Assembly: GCA_021324295.1 (NCBI GenBank)
Contig: JAJPJJ010000129.1
Location: 1-54,525 of the forward strand
Direction: 5' to 3'
DNA length: 54,525 nucleotides
Source: Bacillota bacterium
GTDB taxonomy: Bacteria > Sysuimicrobiota > Sysuimicrobiia > Sysuimicrobiales > Segetimicrobiaceae
Every line of letters begins with the position of its first letter. Position 1 is the stretch's first letter. Position numbers and translations under genes: made by a program. Below, piece by piece: positions 38,818-49,981 of this stretch. The notes below the pieces were generated by a model that saw only the letters and a list, made by a program, of their open reading frames with translations, made no database searches and had not been told where the DNA came from.

Positions 38818-39240
38818 CTACTCGTCGCCCGCGGGCCGCTCGACAAGCTCGACGAGCAGGCCGTGGGTCGTCGACGGGTGGACGAACGCGACCCGGGTAC
38901 CCTGCGCGCCGGGCCTGGGCGCCGGGTCGATCAGCCGAAGCCCCGCGGCGCGGGCACGCATCATCGCGGCCCCGAGGTCCGGCACCTCCAGGGCCACGTG
39001 GTGGACGCCGGCGCCGCGTCTGGCCAGGAACCGCGTGAGGGCGCCATCGCCCGCCGGCTCCAGGAACTCGATCCGAGAGCTTCCGATGGGAGCGAACGAG
39101 ACCCGGGTGCCCTCGGTGGGCACCGTCTCCCGACCGCACGGCGAGAGGCCCAGCCGGGGCCCGTAGTCCCGATCGGCCGCGTCCAGGGTCGGGACGACCA
39201 CGGCGAGGTGCCGGAGGCGCACGGCGGGGGGGCGCTTCAC
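38818..39240 (-). CDS. mce: Methylmalonyl-CoA epimerase
   Basis: 140 residues. Vicinal-oxygen-chelate fold enzyme converting (S)- to (R)-methylmalonyl-CoA, between propionyl-CoA carboxylase and the mutase. Metal-ligand region RLRHLAVVVPTLDAA (His), a Glu in SSRIEFLEP, GAGVHHVALEVPDLGAA (His) and the closing Glu in GLLVELVE. The GTG start overlaps the MeaB stop (GTGA), so it is translationally coupled, and it is the last gene of the propionate run. Confidence 0.92.
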   Translation of the reverse strand: MKRPPAVRLRHLAVVVPTLDAADRDYGPRLGLSPCGRETVPTEGTRVSFAPIGSSRIEFLEPAGDGALTRFLARRGAGVHHVALEVPDLGAAMMRARAAGLRLIDPAPRPGAQGTRVAFVHPSTTHGLLVELVERPAGDE

Positions 39241-40184
39241 CCGAGCCTCGCCTGCGCCAGAAGCTCTTCCGCCGCCGCGTAGGGGTCCAGCTCGCCGGAC
39301 GCCACGCGTGCGGCGAGCTCGTCGAGACGCGCATCCCCGGCGCGCCGGAGGACCTGCGCGCGGAGCCGGTCGTCCACGATACGAAGGATCTCCCGCCTCC
39401 GGCGCGCCCGGCGCCGCTCCGCCAGGAGGCCGCGCGCCTCCTGGTACGCCCGGTGCTCCCCGATCGCCCGAAGAAGCTCCGCGACACCGGTGCCCTCGGT
39501 CGCGGTGGCGAGCAGCACGGGCGGCGTCCAGCCGTCCCGGGCCGGGGCCAGGCTGAGCGTCGCCCGGATCTCGGCGGCCGTCCGGCCGGCGTCCCCGCGA
39601 TCGGCCTTGTTCACCACGAAGAGGTCGCCGATCTCCATCACCCCGGCCTTGAGCGCCTGCACCGCGTCGCCCAGATGCGGGACCGTGACCAGCACGACGG
39701 TGTCCGCGGCGCTCGCGATCTCGACCTCGGCCTGGCCGGCCCCCACCGTCTCCACCAGCACCAGGTCGCACCCGTAGGCATCGAGCACCCCGACCGCGGC
39801 GGCCGTCGCGGGGGCGAGCCCGCCGAGGTGGCCGCGCGTCGCCATGCTGCGCACGAACACGCCGGGATCGGTGCTGTGGTCCTGCATCCGGATCCGGTCG
39901 CCCAGGATCGCGCCGCCGGTAAACGGGCTCGTCGGGTCCACCGCTACGACCCCGACCCGCCTTCCGCCCCGCCGGACCTCACGCACGAGCGCATCGATGA
40001 GCGTACTCTTGCCGGCGCCCGGAGGGCCCGTGACGCCGACGACGTAGGCTCGGCCGGTGTGCGGGTGCAGCGCGCGCAGGAGGGGGACCGCCTCCTCCGG
40101 GCGGCTCTCGACGATCGAGATGAGCCGCGCGGCCGCCTGGGAGGAGCCGCCCACCACGGCCGCGGCCAGCCCCTCGGCCCTCAT
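39237..40184 (-). CDS. meaB: Methylmalonyl-CoA mutase-associated GTPase MeaB
   Basis: 315 residues. G3E GTPase that gates cofactor loading and protects the mutase from inactivation. Walker [18 protein letters not shown], switch [46 protein letters not shown] and the base-binding NKAD. ATG overlaps the mutase stop (ATGA) and the stop overlaps the epimerase start, as expected for stoichiometric partners. Confidence 0.95.
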
Positions 40185-41842
40185 ACCCCGACCGGCGGGC
40201 GGTAGACCCCGAAGCGTGCGCGGAGCGTATCGCAGATTTCCCCGATCGTCGCATACGCCCGGACCGCCTCGAGGATGTGCGGGAGCACGTTCTCCCGCCC
40301 GGCCGCAGCGTCGCGGAGGCCATCCAGCGCTGCCCGGACGCGCGCGCCGTCCCGCTCCGCCCGCACGCGGCGGAGGCGGCGTTTCTGGCGCTCCACGACC
40401 GCCGGGTCGACGCGGAGGATCGGCGGCGGCGGTGGCTCGTCGGCGGTCTGGAAGCGGTTCACGCCCACGATCACGCGGCGCCCGGCCTCCACTTCCTGCT
40501 GCTCGCGGTACGCCGCCTCCCCGATCTCCCGCTGCACGTAGCCTTCCTCGATCGCCCGGAGCATCCCGCCGGCCTGCTCGATCCGGTCGAGGTAGGCCTG
40601 CGCGCGGCGCTCGATCTCCGTGGTCAGGGCCTCCACGTAGAAGGACCCTGCGAGCGGGTCCACGGTGTCGGCCACGCCGGTCTCGTACGCGATGATCTGC
40701 TGCGTCCGCAGCGCGAGGACAGCCGCCTCATCGGTGGGCAGGGCGAGGGCCTCGTCGCGGGCGTTGGTGTGGAGGGACTGGGTGCCTCCCAGCACCGCGG
40801 CGAGGGCCTGCAGGGTCACGCGGACGACGTTGTTGTCCGGTTGCTGCGCGGTCAGGGCCACCCCGGCCGTCTGCGTGTGGAAGCGGAGCATCCACGAGCG
40901 TGGGTCGCGGGCCCCGAACCGCTCCCGCGCGATCCGGGCCCACAGGCGCCGGGCCGCGCGGTACTTGGCGACCTCCTCGAAGAACTGCATCTGCGCGTCG
41001 AAGAAGAACGCGAGGCGCGGGGCGATCCGGTCGGCGGCGAGCCCGGCGCGCTGCGCGGCCTCCAGGTAGGCGACCGCGTTGCCGAGGGTGAACGCGACCT
41101 CCTGCACCGCGGTGGCGCCCGCCTCCCGGATATGGTAGCCGCTGATGCTGATGGGGTTCCAGCGCGGCAGGCGGTCGGCGCAGAACCCGAGCGTGTCGGT
41201 GACGAGGCGCAGAGATGGGGCCGGGGGGTAGATGTAGGTGCCGCGGGCGATGTACTCCTTCAGGATGTCGTTCTGGATGGTGCCGTCCAGCCGCTCCGGC
41301 GGCACGCCCTGCCGCTCCCCCACGGCGATGTACATGCAGAGCAGGATCGCGGCCGTGGCGTTGATCGTCATCGACGTGCTCACCCGGTCGAGCGGGATGC
41401 CGTCGAACAGCACCTCCATGTCGGCGAGGGAGTCGATCGCGACGCCGACCTTCCCGACTTCCGCCTCGGCCAGGGGGTGGTCGGAATCGTATCCCATCTG
41501 CGTCGGCAGGTCGAACGCGACGGAGAGCCCCGTCTGACCCTGCCCGAGCAGGTACCGGAAGCGGCGGTTCGACTCTTCGGCGCCCGCGTACCCGGCGTAC
41601 TGCCGCATCGTCCAGAGGCGGCCCCGGTACATCGTCGGATAGATGCCGCGCGTGTAGGGGTACTCGCCCGGGTAGCCGAGGTCGCGGTCGTAGTCGAGCG
41701 CCGCGATGTCCTCCGGCGTGTAGAGCCGGCGGATCGGGATCCCGGAGGAGGTCTCGAAGACCTCCCGCCGCTCGGGTGCGCGGGCCAGCGCCGGGCGGAG
41801 CGTCTCCGCCTCCCACCGCGTGCGAGAGTCCCCGTTCGCCAT
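40181..41842 (-). CDS. mcmA1: Methylmalonyl-CoA mutase, large (substrate-binding) subunit
   Basis: 553 residues, the length of the split form without its cobalamin domain. It forms the TIM barrel that binds methylmalonyl-CoA: [67 protein letters not shown] and [18 protein letters not shown]. There is no DxHxxG B12 motif, so the ~140-residue cobalamin-binding subunit (mcmA2) must be encoded elsewhere. Coupled to meaB. The biotin carrier gene lies 70 bases upstream. Confidence 0.95.
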
Positions 41843-41911: not shown

Positions 41912-42439
41912 CTACTCGAGCGTCGCGAGAAGCTGGCCCCCCGCTACCTCCTGTCCGGCCGCCACGTGGATCTGCCTGACCGTTCCGGCCCGCGGCGCCC
42001 GGACCTCCATCTGCATCTTCATCGCCTCCATTATAACGAGCGGCTGCCCGCTCTCGACCCGCAGCCCCGCGGCGGCCGGGAGCGCCACCACGAGCCCCGG
42101 CATCGGCGCGCGGACGTCGCCGGCGTGCGCGGTGGAGCGGCCGGGTCCCCCGCCGGTGCGCGTCGAACGGCCCACCTCCACGTCGTACGTCTCCGCATCG
42201 AGCAGGACCCTCCAGCGCCCCGCCGGCGCATCCGGGCGCCGGACGCCGGCGGAGGGCTCGACCACGACCAGGCGGTGAGACCGGCCGTCGACCAGGAGCG
42301 AGAGCCACCCCGGCACCACCTCCGCCGCGTCCACACGGTATGTCGAGCCGCCGAGCGAGACGGCGAGCGTCCCGCCGGCGTCCTCCACCACGACCTCGAG
42401 GCGGTCGCCGCCGAGGCGCACCACGTAGCTGCTCTTCAC
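41912..42439 (-). CDS. Biotin carboxyl carrier protein (BT-BCCP part of propionyl-CoA carboxylase alpha)
   Basis: 175 residues. The C-terminal ~75 residues are a biotinyl domain with the attachment site [14 protein letters not shown] and [13 protein letters not shown]. The N-terminal ~95 residues resemble the BT/interaction domain that in other organisms sits between carboxylase and carrier. The GTG start overlaps the stop of the biotin carboxylase gene (GTGA). Together the two proteins make about 675 residues, the size of a normal single PccA chain, so this looks like a split alpha subunit. Confidence 0.9.
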
Positions 42440-43938
42440 CGGCTGTCTGCGCGGCAGACCGCGTCGTGCCGGGCCCACGCCGCCCACGCCCCCGCGTCCT
42501 GGGCTGGGAGCAGCGGGGTGCGGTCTCTGCGGTACGCGAGCACCGCGGCCGCGAGCGCCGCCACGGCGCGCAGCTCCGGCAGCCGACGCGGCCACTCCTC
42601 CTCCACGAACCGGGTGCTGTACGCGCCCGCGCGAAACGCCGGATGCCGGAGCGCCCACAGGTGGAACGGGATCGTCGTCGGCACGCCGGTGACGACCATC
42701 TCGCGGAGGGCCGCCTCCATCCGCGCGATCGCTCCCTCGCGGGTGTCCGCCCACGTGACGATCTTGGCCAGCAACGGATCGTAGAAGCGCGTCACCTCCA
42801 TCCCCGGCGCCAGGGCGCCGTCGACGCGGACGCCCGGCCCGCCCGGCAGCAGCACGTCGCTGACGCGGCCGGCCCACGGGATAAATCCGGCCTCGGTGTC
42901 CTCGGCCGAGATCCGGCACTCGATCGCGTGCCCCCGGGGCGCCACGTCCTCCTGCCGCAGCGGCAGCGGCTCGCCCGCGGCCACCGCGAGCTGCCAGCCC
43001 ACGAGATCCACGCCCGTGATGCACTCGGTGACCGGATGCTCGACCTGCAGCCTCGCGTTGATCTCGAGGAAGTAGAACTCGTCGCCGGCCACCAGGAACT
43101 CGACCGTCCCGGCGTTCCGGTACCCCACGGTCCGCGCGGCGGCCACCGCCGCGCGGCCCATCGCCGCGCGCAGCCCCTCGGGGAGCCCAGGCGCGGGCGC
43201 TTCCTCGATCACCTTTTGGTGCCGGCGCTGGATGGAGCACTCGCGCTCGCCGAGGTGGACCACGCCGCCGTGGGCGTCGGCCGCCACCTGGATCTCGACG
43301 TGGCGGGGCTGCTCCACCCATCTCTCGAGGTACACCCGCGGATCGCCGAACGCGGTCTGGGCCTCGCCGCGCGCCAGCCGCAGCGCGCCCGCGAGGTCCT
43401 CCGGCTGCCGGACGAGGTGGATCCCCTTCCCCCCGCCGCCGGCGGCGGCCTTGATGAGGAGCGGGAAGCCGATGCGCTCCGCCGCCCCGCGCGCCGCCGC
43501 GTCGTCCACCGGATCGGTGCCCGGCAGCACCGGGACGCCGGCCCCTCGCACGGCGCGCCGGGTCTCTGCCTTGTCCCCGCACAGCGCGAGCGCCTCCTCC
43601 GGCGGGCCGATGAAGACGAGGCCGGCCCGGCGGCACGCCGCGGCGAAGGCCGGGTTTTCGGCGAGGAACCCGTAGCCCGGATGGACGGCGTCGGCGCCGG
43701 CCCGGCACGCCGCGCTGACGATCCGGTCGATGCGGAGGTAGGAGTCCGCGGCCGGCGCCGGGCCCACGCGGTACGCTTCGTCCGCCGCGTGCACGTGCGG
43801 GGCGGCTCGATCGGGATCGCTGTAGATCGCCACCGTCGCGATGCCCCGGGCGCGGCAGGCCCGGATCACGCGCAGCGCGATCTCAGCCCGGTTGGCGATG
43901 AGGACCTTGCGAATCGGCCTGGATGCCACGCTGACCAC
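42436..43938 (-). CDS. Biotin carboxylase subunit (propionyl/acetyl-CoA carboxylase)
   Basis: 500 residues, ATP-grasp. IRKVLIANRAEIALRVIRAC at the N-terminus, GYGFLAENPAFA, the Gly loop KAAAGGGGKGIHLV, ERECSIQRRHQKVIEEAPAP, EFYFLEINARLQVEHPVTEC and GHAIECRISAEDTEAGFIPW. It carboxylates biotin on the carrier encoded next, using bicarbonate. A GTG start without a strong ribosome site is used; another GTG lies three codons in. Confidence 0.94.
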   Translation of the reverse strand: MVSVASRPIRKVLIANRAEIALRVIRACRARGIATVAIYSDPDRAAPHVHAADEAYRVGPAPAADSYLRIDRIVSAACRAGADAVHPGYGFLAENPAFAAACRRAGLVFIGPPEEALALCGDKAETRRAVRGAGVPVLPGTDPVDDAAARGAAERIGFPLLIKAAAGGGGKGIHLVRQPEDLAGALRLARGEAQTAFGDPRVYLERWVEQPRHVEIQVAADAHGGVVHLGERECSIQRRHQKVIEEAPAPGLPEGLRAAMGRAAVAAARTVGYRNAGTVEFLVAGDEFYFLEINARLQVEHPVTECITGVDLVGWQLAVAAGEPLPLRQEDVAPRGHAIECRISAEDTEAGFIPWAGRVSDVLLPGGPGVRVDGALAPGMEVTRFYDPLLAKIVTWADTREGAIARMEAALREMVVTGVPTTIPFHLWALRHPAFRAGAYSTRFVEEEWPRRLPELRAVAALAAAVLAYRRDRTPLLPAQDAGAWAAWARHDAVCRADSR

Positions 43939-44088: not shown

Positions 44089-45642
44089 CTACAGCGGGAT
44101 GTTTCCATGCTTCTTCGGGGGGTTCCGGTCGCGCTTGCCCGCGAGCATCTCGAGCGCCGAGATGAGACGCGGCCGGGTCTCGTGCGGCTCGATGATGTCG
44201 TCCACGTACCCCCGGCTGGCCGCGACGTACGGGTTGGCAAACTGCGCCCGGTACTCGGCCGCGAGCCGCGCCCGCGCGGCCTCGCGGTCCGGCGCCTCCT
44301 CCAGCTCGCGGCGGAAGATGATGTCGATCGCGCCCTCCGGCCCCATGACGGCGATCTCCGCGGTCGGCCAGGCGAGGTTCAGGTCGCCGCGGATGTGCTT
44401 GCTCGACATCACATCGTAGGCGCCGCCGTACGCCTTGCGCGTGATCACCGCGAGTTTCGGCACGGTCGCCTCGCAGTACGCGAAGAGCAGCTTGGCCCCG
44501 TGCCTGATGATCCCGCCGTGCTCCTGCTCGGTCCCGGGGAGGAACCCGGGGACGTCCACGAACGTGACGAGCGGGATGTTGAAAGCATCGCAGAACCGCA
44601 CGAAGCGGGCGCCCTTCACCGAGCTGTTGATGTCCAGCACACCGGCCAGCACCGCGGGCTGCTGCGCGACGATGCCGACCGCCCGGCCCCCGAGCCGGGC
44701 AAAGCCCACCACGAGGTTCTGCGCGAAGTGCTGCTGGACTTCGAGGAACTCTCCCTCGTCGACCACGTGCGCGATCACATCGCGCATGTCGTACGGCCGG
44801 TGCGGATCCTCGGGCACGAGCGAGTCGAGCGCCGCGTCCATCCGGCGCGGATCGTCGCCGCACGGACGGCGCGGGGGCGCCTCGAGGTTGTTCTGTGGGA
44901 GGTAGCCGAGGAGGCGGCGGATCAGGTGGAGGCAGTCGGCATCGCTCTCGGCGATGAAGTGGGCCACGCCGCTCTTGCCCGCGTGGACCTCCGCGCCCCC
45001 GAGGTCCTCCAACGTGACGTCTTCGTGCGTCACGGCCTTCACCACCTGCGGGCCGGTAACGAACATGTAGCTCGTCCCGCGGACCATGATCGTGAAGTCC
45101 GTGATCGCGGGCGAGTACACCGCGCCGCCGGCGCACGGCCCCATGATCGCGGAGATCTGGGGGACGACGCCGCTCGCCAGCGTGTTCCGCAGGAAGATCT
45201 CCGCGTACCCGCCGAGCGCCGCGACGCCTTCCTGGATCCGGGCTCCTCCGGAGTCGTTGAGGCCGATCACGGGCGCGCCGCTCCGGAGGGCCAGATCCAT
45301 GATCTTGCAGATCTTCTGGGCGTGCCCCTCGCCGAGCGACCCGCCCAGCACCGTGAAGTCCTGCGAGAACACGTACGTGAGCCGGCCGTCGACCGCTCCG
45401 TAGCCGGTCACGACGCCGTCGGCGGGCGCCTCGACCCTGTCCATGCCGAACGCCGTGGCGCGGTGTGTGACGAACCGGTCCAGCTCGACGAACGTCCCGG
45501 GGTCCAGCAGCTCCGCCAGGCGCTCGCGCGCGGTGAGCTTGCCGGAGGCGTGCTGCCGGGCTGTCCGCTCGGGACCGCCGCCCTCCTCGATCCGGGCGCG
45601 CCGCGCCCGGAGCTCCTCGAGGCGGTCAGGGCGGTCGGGCAC
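44089..45642 (-). CDS. Acyl-CoA carboxylase carboxyltransferase subunit (propionyl-CoA carboxylase beta)
   Basis: 517 residues. Crotonase-fold carboxyltransferase that moves CO2 from biotin to propionyl-CoA. [77 protein letters not shown] in the first half; [20 protein letters not shown] and [17 protein letters not shown] in the second; ends [11 protein letters not shown] as typical. The linked mutase, MeaB and epimerase support propionyl-CoA as substrate over acetyl-CoA or methylmalonyl decarboxylation. GTG start with GGAGG ten bases ahead. Confidence 0.95.
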
Positions 45643-45647
45643 GCGGG

Positions 45648-45914
45648 TCAGGCCTCCGGGCTCTGCGCGGGCAGGATGCGGATCGAGATGATGCCGTGCT
45701 TGAAGACGAGCTCCGTGCCGGCCGGTGTCTCCACGATGAGGCTGTACGGGCCGGCGTCCTTGATGATCGCGCGGGGCAGCTCGTAGCCGTCCCGGCAGCG
45801 AAGGTGCACCGGGATCCGGCCCTCGACCAGCGGCTGGTAGAATGCGTCCTCCATGCTGGCACGGCCACGCGGCGGGGCAACATCCCCGCGGGCCGGCTCC
45901 TGGTGCACGGACAT
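45648..45914 (-). CDS. Possible separate Hfq-like product from an internal start
   Basis: An ATG within the longer frame is preceded by AGGAGG with an ideal 7-base gap. It would give an 88-residue protein: a short Pro/Arg-rich lead ([12 protein letters not shown]) and the whole Hfq-like Sm domain, close to the length of ordinary Hfq. The longer frame has no comparable ribosome site at its own start. Either the cell makes both forms, or the N-terminal part and Hfq were once separate genes now fused in frame. Confidence 0.55.
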
Positions 45915-46919
45915 CGCGGCGCCTCCTCTCGGAGCAGCATGCGTCTGGGTTGGGCGAATCTCGCTGAGGTCCACCACCACGTCGGGATCCTCGGAGAGGC
46001 CGCCGGGAACACCTCCGTCCGCGCGCGCGCGGACGGATCCCGCGCCGGCCTGCGCCTCCGCGCGGGAGTCCGGCGGCCCGGGCGGGCTTCCTCCGTCGCC
46101 GCCGGGGGCGCGCTCGGCGGGGCCCGGCCGGCCGGGCTCCGGCGGTCGGTCGGGCGCGGCCGCGTCGGCGATGTGTCCGGTCGCCACGGCGCCGCCGCGT
46201 TCCGAGGCGCGGACGAAGTGGCGCATCTCCTCGAGCCGCTGGCGGCGGTCCGCGCCGTGGAGCGGCGCGCTCGCGAGCGCGGTCCTGAGGAGCCATCGGG
46301 TCACGCCGTCCAGGGCGGCGGCCACGATCGCCTCCGGAAGCTCGTCCTGGGGGACGGCGCCCATGCAGATCTCGGGTCCCTGCGGCGTTGCGATCGCGAG
46401 CCCGACGAGCGCAACCGGCCGGTCGAGGAACGTCGCGAAGGCGGCCTGCTGCACGGTGATCCGCCGGTGAGCTGGGTCGAGCGCCTCGCAGACCGCCTCG
46501 ACGGTCGCCGCGGCCAGCGTCTGCAGCCGGTGCGCCGGCCCGGCCGGCCCCCGGGCCCGCCCCGTCGCCGCCTTCTCCTCCCCGCCCCGGACCCACGCGA
46601 TCCGCACCGCAGCGGATACCTCGCCGGATGCGACGGTCTCCTCCACGCGCACGATCTGGAAGCGCGGGATCTCGGTGGGCCGGAGGCCTTCGCGGAACAG
46701 GGCCACCCGGATGCGCGAGGGGTCGACCGGCACGCCGTACGTGGAGACGAGGGCGGCGGCCACCGCCCGCCGGACCTCGCGGGTGTCGGCGGCGTTCTCT
46801 GCGGTCACGTAGATGCGGTCGATGTCGCCCGCCGGCGTCGCGAAGACGCGCGCCGACGCGACGCCCTCCACGGCCGCGAGGAACCGCTCGATCTCGTCGG
46901 CGTAGACCTCTTTGGGCAT
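45648..46919 (-). CDS. Two-part protein with C-terminal Hfq-like (Sm) domain
   Basis: 423 residues. Residues about 1-75 ([20 protein letters not shown] ... RIRVALF) and about 85-215 (a beta/alpha unit with [16 protein letters not shown] and [20 protein letters not shown]) form an N-terminal part I cannot name; similar modules lie near carboxylase genes in some Firmicutes-like genomes, from memory. A Pro/Gly/Arg-rich linker of ~120 residues follows. The last ~65 residues look like Hfq: [19 protein letters not shown] (Sm1) and [13 protein letters not shown] (Sm2; Hfq has VYKHAIS). An excellent ribosome site lies inside the frame before the Hfq part. It ends 5 bases before the carboxyltransferase start. 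Confidence 0.75.
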
Positions 46920-47001
46920 CGTCCGGCTATTCGCCCATCGCGGAGAGCGGACCTGCCGGGAGGCCGGCATGCTCGGGCGCGTCCCGGGCGCGCGGCGCGG
47001 A

Positions 47002-47568
47002 TCAGAACGTCGGGGGCGACGCGGGCCGGCGCAGCGGCGCGCCGATCATCAGCCCCTCGCCGCCGAGCGCCGGCACGCGGCGCCCGTCGAGCAGGATCTG
47101 CACCTCGGACGCCTGCCGGAACTGCGTCCCGGTGTAGACGACCTGCCACAGGCGCGCCTGCATGCTCGTGCTGCCTCCGCCGCTCGCGAACGGCGCGGTG
47201 AGGTCCACGGTGGCGACCCCGCCCTGGATACGGACGCTCCGCAGCGCCGTGCCCCGCGGGATCTCGCTCGTGATGCCGCGGCGCTGCTCCTCGGGCGTCG
47301 GGCCGGCGATCAGGTCGCGGAGGGCGAACCGGAGGAGCGCGCTCGTCCCTCCGGACCCCGCGGCCCGGCGGACGCGGACGAGCGTCCCGGCATGCGTGGC
47401 CGGATCGTAGCGGACGAAGAACACGTCCACGGCCGCGGGCCGCGGCAGGGCGAGCCGCACCGCGACGGCCGCCGCCGCGGCGAGCACCAGCAGGAGCGCC
47501 AGCCGCCCCAGGCGAGGTGCCCTCCCGCCGGCGCGGCGTCCAGGACCCGGCGCGCGCCTCCTCACCAT
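47002..47568 (-). CDS. GerMN-domain secreted protein
   Basis: 188 residues. A basic N-terminus and one hydrophobic segment (LGRLALLLVLAAAAAVAVRL, about 20-40), then a GerMN domain: VDVFFVRYDP, ALRDLIAGPTPEEQRRGITS, RGTALRSVRIQGGVATVDLT and ARLWQVVYTGTQF. GerMN is found in the sporulation/germination protein GerM and in lipoproteins of non-sporulating bacteria, where it probably binds cell wall. No lipobox Cys is present. It starts 13 bases after the ligA stop, so it is coupled to ligA. Confidence 0.87.
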   Translation of the reverse strand: MVRRRAPGPGRRAGGRAPRLGRLALLLVLAAAAAVAVRLALPRPAAVDVFFVRYDPATHAGTLVRVRRAAGSGGTSALLRFALRDLIAGPTPEEQRRGITSEIPRGTALRSVRIQGGVATVDLTAPFASGGGSTSMQARLWQVVYTGTQFRQASEVQILLDGRRVPALGGEGLMIGAPLRRPASPPTF

Positions 47569-47581
47569 CGCGGCGCGGCGC

Positions 47582-49981
<2,400 letters not shown>

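Follow-up and report, generated by a model that had tools for sequence, protein, structure and literature searches.

A fusion gene of Sysuimicrobiota encodes a C-terminal Hfq-type Sm domain and contains a conserved internal ribosome site that should yield a free Sm protein

The window analyzed here (the whole stretch of DNA studied, 54,525 nucleotides) harbors on its minus strand an open reading frame of 423 amino acids that runs from an ATG at 46919 to a TGA at 45648 (45648..46919) and joins an N-terminal two-domain module, a linker and a C-terminal Hfq-type Sm domain. The features and genes of the window that are given below with coordinates lie on the same strand. Both N-terminal domains are modelled by AlphaFold2 at high confidence. 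Domain 1 (residues 7-74, 46698..46901, pLDDT ~93) has the order alpha-beta-beta-alpha-beta and represents the conserved start of a free-standing protein family, and domain 2 (residues 88-217, 46269..46658) consists of two beta3-alpha units with, according to Foldseek, the fold of the LeuA regulatory domain. A helix with a conserved DRRxxLExMR motif (residues 225-246, 46182..46247; alignment and AlphaFold2) runs into the linker (residues ~247-355, 45855..46181). A previous sequence-only reading of this DNA had placed a long linker behind a two-domain protein, and this region is indeed variable in the alignment and disordered in the model (pLDDT <50). In the alignment it contains a conserved EIRPxxxxGGA stretch and an internal start. 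Here, a Shine-Dalgarno sequence AGGAGG (45922..45927) lies 7 nt ahead of an in-frame ATG (45912..45914), which opens a nested frame of 88 amino acids (45648..45914) predicted to encode a free Hfq-type Sm protein. The Sm fold, an N-terminal helix followed by five strands, occupies residues 356-415 (45675..45854; AlphaFold2 and Foldseek).

Upstream of the fusion gene are two conserved neighbors, a gerM-like gene (47002..47568; PF10646, E 1.8e-18) and ligA (47582..49600, the end coordinate being approximate; Pfam and synteny). The position ahead of propionyl-CoA carboxylase genes, noticed in the sequence-only reading, holds true: downstream follow a pccB/accD-type carboxyltransferase (44089..45642; PF01039, E 4.7e-58), a biotin carboxylase (42436..43938; Pfam), a biotinyl carrier protein (41912..42433; PF00364), a methylmalonyl-CoA mutase (40181..41842; PF01642, E 2e-231) and a MeaB GTPase (39237..40184; PF03308, E 4.7e-95). 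Also encoded in the set is a member of the glyoxalase family, which may be the epimerase. Judged by its gene content, this is an operon for a propionyl/acetyl-CoA carboxylase and the methylmalonyl-CoA route of propionyl-CoA and branched-chain amino acid breakdown. The inferred GTG start of pccB/accD lies 5 bp past the stop codon of the fusion, and translational coupling of the two genes is likely.

The window comes from a little-studied phylum now named Sysuimicrobiota (CSP1-3; PMC11604079, a paper that does not mention Hfq). It is represented here by one order with families f1 to f7, and the window belongs to f1. A single-protein search of genome contigs gave no match, while an alignment query did match relatives, namely metagenome-assembled genomes (MAGs) with labels such as Armatimonadetes CSP1-3 and 'Terrabacteria group ANGP1'. 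The sequence-only reading had proposed to compare related genomes for separate versus fused genes. The fusion is present in 34 of 43 phylum genomes when fragments are included, in about 32 as the same open frame, and within our set of 61 genomes it is absent outside the order. Among the matches listed in a profile search of 386 genomes from outside the phylum, the N-terminal half and Hfq occur only as separate proteins. Wherever the contig allows a view, the gene order ligA - gerM - fusion - pccB is constant. An assembly or frameshift artefact is ruled out, since about 32 independent genomes carry the same open fused frame with fixed synteny. The fusion gene is absent at the locus in f4 (G014), where gerM is followed directly by pccB-accC-biotinyl, and in f3 (G013), where gerM is followed by pccB. 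With midpoint rooting, a tree of pccB and LigA separates the pair f3 and f4 (support 0.99) from every carrier, so that the gene may either have been gained by the carriers' ancestor or have been lost in f3/f4.

Both Sm motifs are present near the C-terminus of the 423-residue protein, and the sequence-only reading had taken the last ~65 residues to be Hfq-like on this ground. On its own, the window copy scores below the Pfam and TIGR cut-offs for Hfq (PF17209 / TIGR02383); its 88-residue part reaches E 0.0028 and 17.7 bits against PF17209, where the cut-off is 27 bits. As a family profile we used an alignment of 19 orthologous C-termini (A2). Searched against all PDB sequences, this profile finds the Thermotoga maritima Hfq (4y91) first, with E 1.5e-7, and more than 30 further Hfq chains, many of them below 1e-3. 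The weak score of the single copy is therefore no longer a reason for doubt. PF17209 matches 18 of the 19 A2 members (best E 1.9e-10), and matches over the cut-off occur in 22 of the 43 phylum genomes, all of them fusion orthologues with the exception of a free-standing one in genome G030. Structure prediction of the C-terminus and of the whole chain, another suggestion of the sequence-only reading, gave the same answer: the monomer model of the Sm part shows the N-terminal helix and five strands at a pLDDT of ~96, and its best Foldseek matches in the PDB are Hfq proteins (target-normalised TM 0.77-0.89). By profile and by model, the C-terminal part encoded by the frame 45648-46919 is thus an Sm domain of the Hfq type.

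The surface of this domain differs from that of canonical Hfq in a specific manner. We mapped the residues through the family and PDB alignments, using Hfq numbering and residue roles. In the proximal uridine pocket, all A2 members keep Lys56 and His57, position 42 is Tyr or His, position 55 is Phe or Tyr, and an invariant Glu replaces Gln8. On the distal face, Tyr25 is replaced by Arg, Asn28 by Asp, Ile30 by Tyr and Lys31 by Glu, all invariantly in A2, while Gly29 stays Gly. The canonical distal face for A-rich RNA is accordingly not seen at the mapped positions Tyr25, Gly29, Ile30 and Lys31 in A2. The rim arginines Arg16 and Arg17 were likewise not found in the A2 alignment, which has Val/Ile and Ala/Glu/Thr at these places; many family members have other arginines at positions 13/14, and further basic residues are conserved on an Arg-Cys-Arg strand. 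The sequence-only reading had made its case depend on key RNA-binding residues in relatives, and it fares unevenly on this point, as the proximal pocket is mostly kept but the distal face is replaced and the rim Arg16/17 are missing. Because the pocket Lys and His are invariant but the distal residues are replaced, proximal uridine binding by the Sm domain appears plausible, whereas canonical A-rich distal binding does not.

Pfam has no match for the N-terminal 247 residues. The sequence-only reading had spoken of an unknown protein; the half is indeed unnamed, but it belongs to a recognisable and widespread free-standing family. It aligns with free-standing paralogues of ~220 amino acids at an hhalign probability of 99.9% (E 5e-31). 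Genes of this family lie next to secA in the phylum, in f6 between hpf and secA, and are present in other bacteria too. The family is unnamed in Pfam and NCBIfam, and hpf encodes the ribosome hibernation factor. The paralogue in the genome of the window is found at L035:3426-4008 (G000:C128), and others are L036, L037, L038 and L082. For domain 2, the first Foldseek match is LeuA from M. tuberculosis (E 1.1e-4), and leucine-bound LeuA (3fig) is matched with E 8.1e-4 over 139 columns at an rmsd of 5.6. The regulatory domain of LeuA (2-isopropylmalate synthase, PF08502) has the same two beta3-alpha units; unlike LeuA, the fusion protein has no catalytic barrel and shows no sequence-profile relationship that could be detected. 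Membership in the LeuA family was considered and is unsupported by sequence (no Pfam match, hhalign probability 1-7%). Since sequence profiles do not detect LeuA, we read this as a likeness of fold that does not imply kinship. Domain 2 also occurs by itself at the C-terminal end of CBS-CBS-GGDEF proteins of the phylum (L108, L110, L111, L113, L115), where it may be an accessory domain of c-di-GMP signalling that, judging from the Pfam scan, is undescribed. The secA and hpf neighbors and the CBS-CBS-GGDEF context fit a regulatory, perhaps ligand-binding, module.

A search for another hfq, likewise proposed in the sequence-only reading, found none over the threshold in the genome of the window. 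Across the 43 phylum genomes, at E 0.001, the fused domain is the only Hfq-family match apart from the one free-standing hfq in G030. This canonical gene (G030:C156, L080) lies on a 4.7-kb contig, flanked on one side by a der-like GTPase gene and on the other by hflX/hflK-like genes, as is typical of proteobacteria. We considered it as a second, canonical hfq of the phylum, the only candidate of its kind, and from its proteobacteria-like neighbors it is probably a contamination of the MAG.

The internal site had been noted in the sequence-only reading as an AGGAGG exactly 7 nt before an ATG that would give an 88-residue product, and it is present in the window as described, AGAGGAGG-CGCCGCG-ATG. 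A Shine-Dalgarno sequence and an ATG or GTG are found at the same point in 25 of 32 orthologues, with a short product of 81-107 amino acids; in f6 the sequence here is GAGGGAGGTGC, with an ATG or GTG after it. A pattern search located the 16S 3' end GGATCACCTCCTT in six phylum genomes, which makes GGAGGTG a near-perfect partner of the 16S rRNA. In the window's own gene, the pairing energy is -11.3 kcal/mol at the internal start and -2.8 kcal/mol at the long start, compared to an average of -3.5 at random positions.

We compared these sites with a null in which synonymous codons were shuffled within each gene, keeping its own codon usage (1000 shuffles), and the best Shine-Dalgarno-plus-start within 40 codons ahead of the Sm domain was scored. 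For f6 the observed mean is -13.9 kcal/mol against -7.0 in the null, a value reached in none of 1000 shuffles, and for f1, the window's family, it is -10.9 against -8.7 (4 of 1000). The corresponding numbers are 6 of 1000 for f5/f7, 3 of 1000 for genus g14 of f2 and 907 of 1000 for the rest of f2. Taken one gene at a time, the p-values of f1 are modest (0.014 to 0.6), and the case rests on the group; genomes of the same genus are not independent. The codons themselves are also constrained. In f6, 45 columns show an invariant amino acid with four-fold degenerate codons; just two of them use a single codon in all ten genomes, and these are the adjacent Shine-Dalgarno glycine codons GGA GGT. Shared ancestry cannot explain this freezing, because all columns share the same tree. 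The first glycine codon is GGA in 18 of the 20 Shine-Dalgarno-bearing sequences with the motif but in none of the 6 from the remainder of f2; as a background, GGA makes up ~12% of the glycine codons used by f1 and f6. Within f1, the Shine-Dalgarno sequence and ATG persist despite a changed peptide (L003, GGGAGGAA; L009/L010, GGAGAGGTGATC; also L012). A chance internal Shine-Dalgarno sequence is ruled out by the codon shuffles together with the codon freezing, and the comparison of orthologues supports a real internal ribosome site that is kept by selection. From this site, a free Sm protein of ~88 amino acids should be made.

The short form seems not to be needed everywhere, since seven orthologues, all from one f2 subclade, have lost the Shine-Dalgarno sequence and mostly the start as well (GTC in four, GGG in one). 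According to the tree, the internal site is ancestral to all fusion carriers and was lost once, in this monophyletic f2 subclade (support 0.98). The EIRPE...GGA peptide stays conserved even there, and the peptide or its RNA must therefore have another role too. The ten f6 genomes also agree in the Arg CGT and Glu GAA codons of EIRPE, just upstream of the internal Shine-Dalgarno sequence, so that the constraint on the nucleotides is wider than the Shine-Dalgarno sequence. A pattern of the extended Shine-Dalgarno element matches 5 of 61 genomes, each of them once and at no other place than this gene. In predicted folds the internal Shine-Dalgarno sequence is only partly unpaired (0.16-0.75), and single-sequence folds revealed no conserved RNA hairpin around it.

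The start of the long frame looks different. The sequence-only reading found no good ribosome site there, in agreement with the pairing energy given above; the mean in f1 is -4.5, at the level of the background (-3.5 kcal/mol), and the long starts of f6 have weak Shine-Dalgarno sequences as well. The f1 members share an (A/C)GAATA-like stretch that is conserved 9-11 nt ahead of the long ATG (window 46926-46940, minus strand). It resembles a -10 element, and a leaderless or short-leader transcript is possible.

Taken together, the gene, the only detectable Hfq locus of this uncultured lineage, probably gives rise to two nested products, and its Sm rings would consist mostly of short subunits. 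The long product (423 aa) would carry the regulatory two-domain module and the disordered linker in front of the Sm domain; the short product (88 aa) would be the Sm domain alone, initiated at the internal ATG by the strong Shine-Dalgarno sequence. By analogy with Hfq, the Sm domains would assemble into a ring. Since the short form is well initiated it should be in excess, and a typical ring would then contain mostly short and one or few long subunits, the latter holding the regulatory module outside the ring. The LeuA-regulatory-like module might bind a ligand or a partner and thereby place or tune the RNA-binding ring. Precedents for two nested products in one complex speak in favor of such an arrangement. 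In the LysIME-EF1 endolysin, one full-length and three short chains from one gene form the complex (PMC7098653), and in Cas8b/Cas11b initiation at an internal codon of the same frame produces the C-terminal portion on its own, as a subunit that assembles with the full-length protein (PMC11899642). Both systems are proven by experiment, unlike the case described here, which is predicted, concerns an RNA-binding ring protein and is phylum-wide in bacteria.

Three other explanations have to be weighed against these two nested products. It might be that the long fusion alone is made and that the Shine-Dalgarno-like stretch is a pausing or other RNA signal, or a by-product of the EIRPExxGGA peptide. 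The conservation of this peptide in the f2 subclade without Shine-Dalgarno sequence and start, and the upstream codons frozen in f6, would be understandable on these terms. However, a pausing signal would need no start codon, and yet an ATG or GTG at suitable spacing follows in all 25 Shine-Dalgarno-bearing orthologues and decays along with the Shine-Dalgarno sequence in the f2 subclade; moreover, L003, L009, L010 and L012 keep both elements with a different peptide. We consider this explanation improbable. Still less can be said for the idea that the short form is mainly functional and the long frame a read-through relic of once separate X (the N-terminal half) and hfq genes, which we regard as very improbable. 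The weak Shine-Dalgarno sequence at the f1 long start, the f4/f3 locus without either part and the free-standing X and Hfq that are the rule elsewhere agree with a relic, but ~32 genomes have the long frame open over its entire length, conservation of the N-terminal domains is seen at the level of the protein, and the f1 long start is itself conserved with a promoter-like element directly ahead, where low Shine-Dalgarno strength would be compatible with leaderless initiation.

The third explanation concerns function. The Sm domain could serve as an oligomerisation module for the sensor-like N-terminal part rather than as an RNA chaperone, with the short form as a spacer subunit, similar to the phage endolysin that has short C-terminal subunits as oligomer partners (PMC7098653). 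The family-wide replacement of the distal-face residues and the missing rim arginines 16/17 point in this direction. Against this stand the invariant Lys56/His57 in A2, the aromatic residues kept at positions 42 and 55 and the other conserved basic residues, including the Arg-Cys-Arg strand, and we judge a purely structural role unlikely, though worth keeping in mind.

With Hfq (PF17209 / TIGR02383) the domain shares the Sm fold of an N-terminal helix and five strands and the [Y/F]KH[A/G]I motif. It differs in being fused behind two domains, in having [IL]RCRDGYE in place of the distal YLVNGIKL and Glu in place of Gln8, and in its gene setting, since hfq usually lies in a miaA-hfq arrangement. 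The closest solved relatives by profile, Hfq proteins from deep-branching bacteria such as Thermotoga maritima (4y91) and Aquifex aeolicus (5szd), are free-standing and unfused, with canonical surface motifs (PMC5379935). To our knowledge, no Hfq has been described that throughout a lineage forms part of a larger regulatory protein, nor one whose free form has a dedicated internal start, and searches of the open-licence literature found no report of this kind. An annotation based on single-protein scores would label these bacteria hfq-negative. If both products are made, the gene would offer a natural route to asymmetric Sm rings with an attached sensor, and a coupling of small-molecule state to RNA regulation would become testable. 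The conserved operon position and the leucine-sensing-like fold of the N-terminal model are no more than suggestive of metabolic control; with a fold like that of a leucine sensor in a methylmalonyl-CoA operon, one may think of RNA binding that is tuned by a metabolite. That the gene encodes a redesigned phylum-level Hfq, in which a metabolite on the LeuA-like long subunit alters RNA binding by the mixed ring and perhaps controls its own propionyl-CoA/methylmalonyl-CoA operon, is a speculative extension to which we give a low probability.

Two minor observations concern other genes of the phylum. Free-standing Sm copies of divergent sequence are detected with a more sensitive profile, in no more than four genomes (L031:1774-2253, L032:2045-2263, L033:2028-2192 and L034:1978-2211), and the copy in L031 has lost the KH of the YKH motif (ELLLARAIISV). 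A match to the NAD-dependent ligase LigA is missing in the four f4 genomes G019, G022, G025 and G028, which are 94-99% complete, and also in G039; the f4 member G014 does have LigA.
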